This document shows positions 30,775 to 34,072 of a stretch of 64,000 nucleotides of DNA, one piece after another. This stretch comes from Candidatus Nanopelagicales bacterium. Lineage in GTDB: Bacteria > Actinomycetota > Actinomycetes > S36-B12. The notes under the pieces are model-generated. The model did not search any database, had not been told where the DNA came from, and was given only the letters and a program-made list of their open reading frames with translations. The DNA lies in NCBI GenBank assembly GCA_018609125.1, contig JABAYF010000016.1:1-64000 (forward strand). The letters are read 5' to 3'. Position 1 is the first letter of the stretch; each line of letters begins with the position of its first letter. Both the position numbers and the translations under genes were made by a program.

Positions 30775-31974
30775 CTATCCTGCTTCGGATTCCCATGTGG
30801 CAACGACATCTAGGAGTTGATCGGCGAGGTCAATTTTTGTCGTTGACGGGACTGCCAACAAGCCACCGCGCGAGTCCACGATGATCGCTGCGGTCGTCGA
30901 CTGACCAAAAACCTGGCCGCCGCTAACATCGTTTGCCACTAAGAGGTCACAACCCTTGCGCTGCAATTTGTCGCGACCAGCCAGCATGAGTTCATCCCCA
31001 CCGATGGTTTCAGCAGCGAAACCAATGAAGATTTGACCGGGCGTGCGTGCAGCGGTGAGCGTGGTCAGCACATCAGGATTCGTCCGCAACTCGATGGCGG
31101 TCGGTGCCGACGACGTTTTCTTGATCTTGTGATCAGACACATCTGAGGGGCGAAAGTCAGCGACAGCGGCGGCCATGATGATCACGTCAGCGGTGGGTAG
31201 GAGGCCCAGCATGGCCACACCCATCTGCTCGGCGGATTCAACGGCCACCACATCAATGCCGGCGGGCACGACGACGTCGAGGTTGGCACCCACGAGCGTG
31301 ACCCGGGCACCACGCTCGGCAGCACGCTGGGCAATCGCGACTCCCTGGCGTCCGCTACTGCGATTACCTAGATAACGCACGGGGTCCACAGCCTCACGAG
31401 TACCACCTGCTGAAACCAACACATGGCGCCCGATGAAGTCTTGTGGTGCCAACAGAGCCAGACCCGCAGCGACGATGTCGGTGGGGTCAGGCAATCGCCC
31501 CGAACCAGAATCAGCGCCGGTCAGCCGGCCTACGGCCGGGTCAAGTACGTGAAAACCACGGGAACGCAAAAGTGCGACGTTGGCTTGAGTGGCGGGGTTT
31601 TGCCACATCTCGGTATGCATCGCCGGACTCAGCAGGATCGGGCAGGTGGCGGTCAACAACGATGTGGTGAGCAGATCATCAGCTAGACCGACAGCAGCTC
31701 GGGCCAGCAGGTCGGCGGTGGCGGGGGCCACAATGACCAACTCGGCCCAACGCCCCAACTCCACGTGCGCCACCCGATGAACATTGGTCCACACCGAGGT
31801 GGTGACCGGATGTCCAGACAGCGCCTCCCAGGTGGGCGCCCCAACGAATCGCAGTGCGGCCTCGGTGGGAGCCACGCGGACTTCGTGGCCAGATTCGCGC
31901 AGGAGCCGCAGCACCGTGCAGGCTTTATACGCCGCGATGCCGCCAGACACTCCCAGCAGAATCGAAGAGCTCAG
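30775..31974 (-). CDS. coaBC: Phosphopantothenoylcysteine decarboxylase/synthase (Dfp)
   Basis: Bifunctional CoA synthesis enzyme. The N-terminal flavoprotein domain shows [11 protein letters not shown], the active-site His region and PAMHTEMW; the C-terminal CoaB domain shows [28 protein letters not shown] and the KIKK loop. The usual ATG is missing: the best start is CTG at 31972-31974, overlapping the rpoZ stop TGA as CTGA, with GAGG 7 bases upstream; it gives [16 protein letters not shown], matching the family. A GTG eight codons later would cut off the first beta strand. Length 399. Confidence 0.93.
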
Positions 31975-32318
31975 GAGGCATCCTCGGGGTTGCTATGGGC
32001 GGGTGCATCAAAACTCATGTCCGCCAGCGTGGGTTCGGTATCGACCGGGACAGGTGCGGTGGGATCAAAAGGTTCGGCGACGAGCAAGCCAGAATCAATT
32101 TCACGCATGGCGATGGAGAGGGCTTTTTCCTGCACGTGGGTTTCCACCAGGGGGCCGACGTTTTCGAGCAAGCCTTCACCCAGTTGGGAGAAGTAGGCAT
32201 TGATCTGTCGTGCGCGCTTGGCCGAATAGATGACCAGGGAGTACTTCGATTCTGTCTTTTCCAACAGATCGTCAATGGCCGGGTAGGTGATTCCCTCGGA
32301 ACGTTGCGATGCACTCAC
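31971..32318 (-). CDS. rpoZ: RNA polymerase omega subunit
   Basis: Small subunit that helps assemble RNA polymerase. The core [20 protein letters not shown] then [18 protein letters not shown] is diagnostic of the actinobacterial form; length 115 with an acidic, proline-containing C-terminal tail. The start is a GTG with AAAGG 9 bases upstream. It lies between gmk and coaBC as in mycobacteria. Confidence 0.95.
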
Positions 32319-32380: not shown

Positions 32381-33280
32381 CTAGCCCGTGAGTTGCGCCA
32401 TAACCGCACCGGCCGCATGTGACACCCGTTCGTTAATGATGACCACGTCAAACTCATCCTGGGCACTGAGCTCTCGACGCGCTGTATCCAACCGCTGGCT
32501 GACAACCTCTGCTGACTCAGTCCCACGCCCGGTGAGACGAGCCACCAGGACTTCCCACGACGGAGGGGCCAAGAAAACCAGGAGCGCTTCTGGGTCCACG
32601 GCCCTGATTTGCCGGGCCCCCTGCAGTTCGATCTCACACATCACATGGACACCCTGCTGAAGTTGGGCACGGACCGGCTGAACGGGTGTGCCGTAAAAGT
32701 GTCCGGAAAACTGAGCCCATTCCAGCAGTTCTCCGGCTACGCGCATGCGATGGAACTCTTCGGTGTCGATGAAGTGGTAGTCGACGCCATCACGTTCACC
32801 GGCTCGTGGTGCCCGCGTTGTGACCGAGATGGAAAACCAGACGTGCGGGTAGTTCTCGCGGATGTGCGCAACCACGCTGGATTTACCAACCCCGGATGGT
32901 CCCGAGAGCACCACGAGCTGAGGGTCTGCGACGACGCGAGGCGAACGTGCCGCACGTCTCGTAGCGAGCGCAGCGGTGATGGCTTGCACCTGCTGGCTGC
33001 CCAACTGACCTAGTCGACGTTCGCCGGGCACCGAGGCCGCATCTTCCAACGCCGCTGCTTTCGCCGGGCCGATTCCGGGCAGGCTGGTGAGAACCTCGTG
33101 TACCCGAAGGCGGCTCACGGCGAGATCGCGACGCTCCTGCAGCAACTGCGCGACGTCTAATTCACCCGCGCGCAGTTCCGCCTTGATCTGCGCTCGCCGT
33201 CGGCGTGCCGTGAGGGCGTTTTCGCGCCCCCGATTGCGCGCCTCGTCGTTGAGTTGTGGTGGCGTCATGAAGTGGCGCAT
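32381..33280 (-). CDS. gmk: Fusion of mIHF-type integration host factor and guanylate kinase
   Basis: One 299-residue open frame joins two proteins that are separate, adjacent genes in mycobacteria. Residues about 5-108 match actinobacterial integration host factor (NDEARNRGRENALTARRRRA, then LTSLPGIGPAKAAALED of the H2TH DNA-binding part and LGSQQVQAITAAL). Residues about 121-299 are guanylate kinase: P-loop LSGPSGVGKSS (125-135), SVTTRAPRAGERDGVDYHFI and the GRGTES lid. The linker of about 12 residues has no stop, no ATG and no ribosome-binding site; only two GTG codons within VVLSGP could restart. The start may be the ATG at 33280 or 33268. It follows pyrF by 9 bases. A base error hiding a stop is possible but the frame and spacing look natural. 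Confidence 0.9.
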   Translation of the reverse strand: MRHFMTPPQLNDEARNRGRENALTARRRRAQIKAELRAGELDVAQLLQERRDLAVSRLRVHEVLTSLPGIGPAKAAALEDAASVPGERRLGQLGSQQVQAITAALATRRAARSPRVVADPQLVVLSGPSGVGKSSVVAHIRENYPHVWFSISVTTRAPRAGERDGVDYHFIDTEEFHRMRVAGELLEWAQFSGHFYGTPVQPVRAQLQQGVHVMCEIELQGARQIRAVDPEALLVFLAPPSWEVLVARLTGRGTESAEVVSQRLDTARRELSAQDEFDVVIINERVSHAAGAVMAQLTG

Positions 33281-33289
33281 GCAGTTGAC

Positions 33290-34072
33290 TCAGCCACGAA
33301 GTGCATCCCGGCACTCGGCAGCGATATCGGCTGCCGCCAAGCCGGGTTCGGCGGCGGCAGTGATCGGGCGCCCTATCACGAGCAAATTGGCCCCATCAGA
33401 CAGGGCTTGCGCGGGCGTGGCCACGCGCTTTTGATCACCTAGCGCACTTCCACTGGGCCGGACCCCAGGAGTGATGAGTACGACATCGGGGGACACCACT
33501 TGGCGGACAGCGGCGACCTCACGTGGCGAGCACACGATTGCGCGCGCCCCGGCCTCGACAGCGATTGCGGCCCAGGTAGTGACGAGGTCGACGGCTGCAT
33601 CGGTCAGGTCTCGATCACGAGCAGTCACATCGTCGGTCGAGTTGGCAACGAACCCGAGACTGGTCAGATCATCAATCGACAGGGAAGTTAAGACCGTGAC
33701 GGCAGTGATGAAGGTTTGCGGCAATTCATCGGCAGCAGCAGCGATCATTGCTGGGCCACCGGATGCATGCACTGTTAAGAAATTCGGCGCTAGCTGAGCT
33801 ACCGACCGCGCTGCTCCGGCCACGGTGGCGGGAATGTCGTGCAGTTTCAGATCTAAAAAGATACGACGTTGCAACGACATCGACTCGAGTTGTTCGCGCA
33901 CTGCGACAACCGCTGACGCACCATCGCGCAAGAACACTTCCAGGCCGATCTTGAAGGTATCCACCGACGACGCAGTACTTCGCACCCACTGGCTTGCACG
34001 TTTCACATCGGGAGCATCTAGGGCGAGAACAATGGGCGCAACGTCTGGTGATGCGCCACCGAACTGAGTCAC
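33290..34072 (-). CDS. pyrF: Orotidine 5'-phosphate decarboxylase (type 1)
   Basis: Last step of UMP synthesis. The catalytic motif is FLDLKLHDIPATV (D-x-K-x-x-D), the type-1 form seen in Bacillus and E. coli, rather than the DAKRGDIG form usual in Mycobacterium and Streptomyces. LALDAPD near the N-terminus and the phosphate loop VITPGVRPSGS...VIGRPIT complete the barrel. Length 260. The GTG start overlaps the pyrD stop (GTGA). Confidence 0.95.
   Translation of the reverse strand: MTQFGGASPDVAPIVLALDAPDVKRASQWVRSTASSVDTFKIGLEVFLRDGASAVVAVREQLESMSLQRRIFLDLKLHDIPATVAGAARSVAQLAPNFLTVHASGGPAMIAAAADELPQTFITAVTVLTSLSIDDLTSLGFVANSTDDVTARDRDLTDAAVDLVTTWAAIAVEAGARAIVCSPREVAAVRQVVSPDVVLITPGVRPSGSALGDQKRVATPAQALSDGANLLVIGRPITAAAEPGLAAADIAAECRDALRG

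Follow-up and report, generated by a model that had tools for sequence, protein, structure and literature searches.

A fused mIHF-guanylate kinase gene directly after pyrF in a Candidatus Nanopelagicales bacterium and in other actinobacterial lineages

Background

The protein mIHF is usually regarded as a small, free nucleoid protein of the actinobacteria, and as an essential one in the mycobacteria. In M. tuberculosis it is a free, abundant and essential nucleoid protein that ranks among the ten most abundant proteins, and its gene possesses transcription starts of its own (PMC6155035). The mycobacterial mIHF (Rv1388) and guanylate kinase (Gmk, Rv1389), together with the Streptomyces protein sIHF (SCO1480), are clear homologues of the two domains considered in this study (PDB: 6tob, 4itq, 1s4q). 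In both mycobacteria and Streptomyces, mIHF and Gmk are the products of separate genes, and in the related genomes that were measured a long distance separates mihF from pyrF. The nearest annotated records, those of Tsukamurella and Collinsella, also have two distinct genes, mihF and gmk, similarly arranged, as the original prediction on this DNA had supposed for the condition elsewhere; the order mihF-gmk-rpoZ-coaBC-metK is common to Tsukamurella and the locus described here.

That locus comes from a Candidatus Nanopelagicales bacterium and lies within a stretch of 64,000 nucleotides that was analysed as a whole (the window). Unlike the mycobacterial and Streptomyces genes, it encodes mIHF and Gmk in a single frame. 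A counterpart is already present in RefSeq in the form of a Microbacterium protein (WP_223172673.1, 298 aa), which is named only 'guanylate kinase'. It shares the domain order of the window's protein (mIHF at aa 11-103, Gmk at aa 120-296) and is encoded directly after pyrF, but it is only about 43% identical and represents a separate fusion event by the tree and the AU test. The architecture is therefore already in the databases, and both of its domains are known. No description of a fusion of mIHF, or integration host factor, to guanylate kinase was found in the searchable literature, outside which most subscription papers lie, and both the recurrence of the fusion and its association with pyrF appear to be undescribed there.

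Results

The fused gene and its neighbourhood

The fused gene (Table 1) is one open frame of 299 residues that begins with ATG and has no internal stop. Since Met5 is aligned with the starts of relatives, it may be the true start, in which case the product would have 295 residues. The gene is set in the usual actinobacterial order pyrF-mihF-gmk-rpoZ-coaBC. The original prediction had postulated a whole mIHF domain and a complete Gmk in one uninterrupted frame, separated by a short Arg/Ala-rich linker, and each of these elements was recovered: the two profile matches follow one another in the frame with the linker between them, and the H2TH segment that had been quoted, LTSLPGIGPAKAAALED, is found in the fused protein.

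Table 1. Coordinates of the fused gene, its parts and its neighbours in the window
Feature	Coordinates	Strand	Basis
Fused mIHF-guanylate kinase gene	32381..33280	-	Single open frame; both families above curated cut-offs; 3 further genomes of the genus have the same fusion
Alternative start codon ATG (Met5), possible	33266..33268	-	Aligned with start codons of relatives
mIHF (H2TH) DNA-binding domain, aa 8-105	32966..33259	-	NF041260, 78.5 bits; PDB 6tob and 4itq by sequence
Linker, about aa 106-120 (~15 residues), Arg/Ala-rich	32921..32965	-	Stretch left between the matches to NF041260 and TIGR03263; model confidence low at aa 111-120
Guanylate kinase domain, aa 121-294	32399..32920	-	TIGR03263, 220 bits; Z 26.1 in the structural comparison with M. 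tuberculosis Gmk
pyrF	33290..34072	-	OMPdecase match; its stop codon separated from the fused gene by 9 nt (33281-33289)
rpoZ, next downstream gene	31971..32318	-	TIGR00690 match

Two further observations concern the surroundings of the gene. In coaBC (30775-31950) the first standard start codon falls within a conserved motif and the match to TIGR00521 starts at model position 11; because of the position of that codon the start is doubtful, and the real one may be non-standard or lie further upstream. Just beyond the window, near the fused locus, a 242-aa frame contains the only HU-type match of the genome (G000:C25:65971-66237), and a search of the genome for Lsr2 found none.

Family membership, conserved residues and predicted structure

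The N-terminal half exceeds the cut-offs of both NF041260 (actino_IHF; cut-off 60 bits), which it matches over model positions 3-101 of 102, and PF22525 (37.7 against a cut-off of 27). It differs from the free-standing form of ~105 aa seen in mycobacteria and Streptomyces in being joined in frame to Gmk; NCBI classes NF041260 as a domain model, and the fused protein therefore remains a member of that domain family. The C-terminal half likewise exceeds the cut-off of 160 bits of TIGR03263 (guanyl_kin), an equivalog model. The Pfam H2TH_5 and Guanylate_kin models concur with these NCBI calls, and both NCBI models match all 41 fused proteins. In profile searches of the genome mIHF and Gmk each proved to be single-copy; a further TIGR03263 match is sub-threshold and is confined to the P-loop end of the model (positions 2-37). 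As the sole Gmk above the cut-off in its genome, the C-terminal half is presumably active in GMP phosphorylation, and the P-loop residues Gly127, Pro128, Gly132 and Lys133, along with the other columns of the Gmk active site, are invariant in the alignment of the 41 fused proteins.

In the numbering of the split gene L053, R19, R22, G65, R83, G88 and Q91 of mIHF are retained in every fused row or in nearly every one. Among the retained positions are the arginines that are invariant in the first helix, the glycine of the H2TH segment and the second RRxR arginine. R82 is either kept or replaced by lysine, and the first RRxR arginine is lysine in f15, the family that contains Microbacterium. The third arginine of the motif is not basic in 4 of the 5 fused groups (the window's genus and three others), being glycine in that genus, in g370 (another genus of the window's order) and in f15, and its loss may weaken DNA binding by the fused mIHF; 18 of 66 split genes have lost it too, and a tree-based test on independent pairs had no power to reach significance for this difference. 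Domain-profile scores of fused mIHF in the window's genus and f15 are about 83-103 bits (one 69), those of most split versions about 120, and those of split members of the window's own family 90-111. None of the fused genes examined has a truncated mIHF domain.

A fold comparison aligned the fused protein with M. tuberculosis Gmk (PDB: 1s4q) over 181 residues at an rmsd of 2.1. The mIHF domain has no entry among the matches listed, because Gmk fills the list, and this is no argument against mIHF. The AlphaFold model, whose input alignment excluded the row from the Microbacterium plasmid record, has a mean pLDDT of 94, about 66 in the linker, and a pTM of 0.70. It predicts that both domains fold well and that the linker has little order, with the placement of the domains relative to each other uncertain. 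In the other fused genes, as delimited by the same domain model, the linker has 11-26 residues; it varies in both length and sequence and has no common motif.

Phyletic distribution

The original prediction had proposed a protein search for the same fusion in related genomes, and this search showed the fusion to be widespread. It is present in all 4 genomes of the window's genus, in 5 of 10 scorable genomes of its sister genus and in both genomes of g370, as well as in all 20 genomes sampled from f15 and in 36 of 40 from f103, a family with small genomes (1.2-2.2 Mb). The inclusion of Microbacterium in f15 follows from the tree, in which a named Microbacterium record (L022; NZ_CP072877.1, 436726-443451) falls inside that family. 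This record is labelled a plasmid and carries the core chromosomal genes pyrF, gmk, rpoZ and metK, with pyrF split between two frames; the label is probably mistaken and the sequence a piece of chromosome.

Could two normal genes have been made to look like one by a sequencing or assembly error that deleted a stop codon or caused a frameshift? One apparent fusion is exactly such a case: G355 (L137), from another class, has Ns at its junction and was rejected as an artefact. However, independent genomes, from the genus as well as from other families, carry the fusion with different linkers and free of Ns; many of those of f15 and f103 are single-contig assemblies, and the RefSeq Microbacterium record has the fusion too. 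The junction in the window contains no ambiguous bases, and because three sister genomes share the fusion, a hidden frameshift or stop in the linker of this one assembly, which had been named as an outcome that would overturn the prediction, is very unlikely; to error as a general explanation we assign next to no probability. Two other assignments were revised: G153 (L138) turned out to be split, and G003, which had seemed split by a TGA, is fused, the TGA lying upstream of the start.

Independent origins of the fusion

On a tree of 124 rows, built from both domains without the linker, the distribution of fused and split states requires at least 6 changes. On a tree of 60 rows, AU tests rejected a single clade of all fused rows (p 1.3e-4), the joining of the fusions of the window's family with that of g370 (p 0.0026), and the joining of f15 with the window's genus (p 0.0021). 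A clade uniting the window's genus with the fused part of its sister genus was not rejected (p 0.48), and one common fusion event may underlie both. By these phylogenies there were at least four independent fusions in the actinobacteria, in the window's family, g370, f15 and f103; the figure is a count of four fused groups, of which the pairs window's family/g370 and f15/window's genus were tested and the remaining pairs rest on the grouping. Within f103, the genus g358 (L143, L144) has separate mihF and gmk genes and is nested in a mostly fused clade, and its split state could be a later gene fission.

Linkage to pyrF and a stepwise route to fusion

In all 64 fused loci measured, the mIHF domain begins -5 to 56 nt from the stop codon of pyrF. 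The corresponding gap in split loci is 137-2142 nt in 37 of 37 cases outside the window's order and f103, mostly a tight 4 to 124 nt within the window's order, and 29 to 74 nt in f103; as these loci are related to one another, the effective sample is four groups. A scan for sigma-70-type consensus sites found no promoter-like sites around the fused gene. This pattern suggests that tight placement after pyrF marks the fusion-bearing lineages, and that a separate mihF promoter was lost before fusion. In split sister species gmk starts on the stop codon of mihF (an ATGA-type overlap, e.g. CGATGACC) and is read in another frame. Since the two genes overlap in different frames, their fusion needed a small indel and not the mere loss of a stop codon.

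From gene position, mihF apparently entered the pyr operon first and was fused only afterwards. We envisage that mihF would initially have lost the long gap behind pyrF, which could hold a promoter of its own, and become an internal gene of the pyr operon; that gmk would then have come to overlap its stop codon in the ATGA manner; and that a small indel would finally have merged the overlapping frames. Placement in the pyr operon also suggests lower, enzyme-like levels of mIHF in the fused lineages.

Discussion

The single frame, the single copy of each domain, their conservation, the presence of the fusion in sister genomes, the at least four fusions, the linkage to pyrF and the overlap in the sister species are together best explained, in our estimation probably correctly, by a two-domain protein that consists of an N-terminal H2TH-type mIHF tethered to a catalytically complete Gmk by a short, flexible linker, constitutes the cell's only copy of both, and arose stepwise by way of the pyr operon. 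Its product would remain uncleaved and its mIHF domain would still bind DNA; the fusion would fix mIHF at an enzyme-like abundance and a 1:1 ratio, and part of the cell's Gmk would thereby be located on the nucleoid.

The points at which this picture could fail are the unity of the product and the role of its N-terminal half. With regard to the former, an internal start or cleavage of the linker might yield two products from one frame, leaving the cell with free Gmk or free mIHF and so with both proteins unattached. The original prediction had stated that there is no internal start with a ribosome-binding site. This holds in so far as none is conserved: ATG, GTG and TTG codons in the junction differ in position even within a genus, none being conserved in frame, and five fused genes (L054, L080, L089, L125 and L136) have no such codon there. 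It holds less firmly for the window itself, where weak TTG/GTG candidates at aa 93-98 form an anti-SD duplex (about -3 kcal/mol) at least as strong as that of the gene's own start (-2.2). The predicted weak order of the linker would also suit cleavage, and a second product would remove a mismatch in abundance, for by analogy with M. tuberculosis an abundant mIHF would be hard to reconcile with a fixed 1:1 pairing to an enzyme, unless the demand for mIHF fell or the protein is processed (PMC6155035). Yet no internal promoter was seen, and the linkers differ in length and sequence and share no motif. Because conserved internal starts are lacking and five fused genes have no junction start codon at all, a single polypeptide is the likely product, with a 1:1 tether of mIHF and Gmk as the likely consequence if it stays uncleaved; we consider two products improbable.

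Within a single polypeptide, Gmk could work normally while the mIHF half, no longer having a role in the nucleoid, persists as a neutral N-terminal extension. The reduced profile scores in the window's genus and f15, the glycine at the third RRxR position and the lack of room for a separate promoter behind pyrF all favour such decay, and of the alternatives it deserves some weight. Nevertheless, we think it rather unlikely: the core basic and H2TH residues are conserved over at least four independent lineages at large divergence, all the fused genes examined have the domain untruncated, and the genome has no second mIHF. Recurrent fusion could also be adaptive, either by placing GDP/GTP synthesis on the chromosome or by letting the GMP/GTP pool, or Gmk-bound ppGpp, alter the DNA binding of mIHF; this is a long shot, which, if true, would make the fusion a nucleoid protein that senses guanine nucleotides.

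Conclusion

Records named only 'guanylate kinase' can conceal a genome's sole mIHF. Several lineages, including the cultivable Microbacterium, appear to make mIHF only as a fusion to an enzyme, and they make it possible to test if a free and abundant mIHF is necessary and if the protein needs guanine-nucleotide metabolism for its role.
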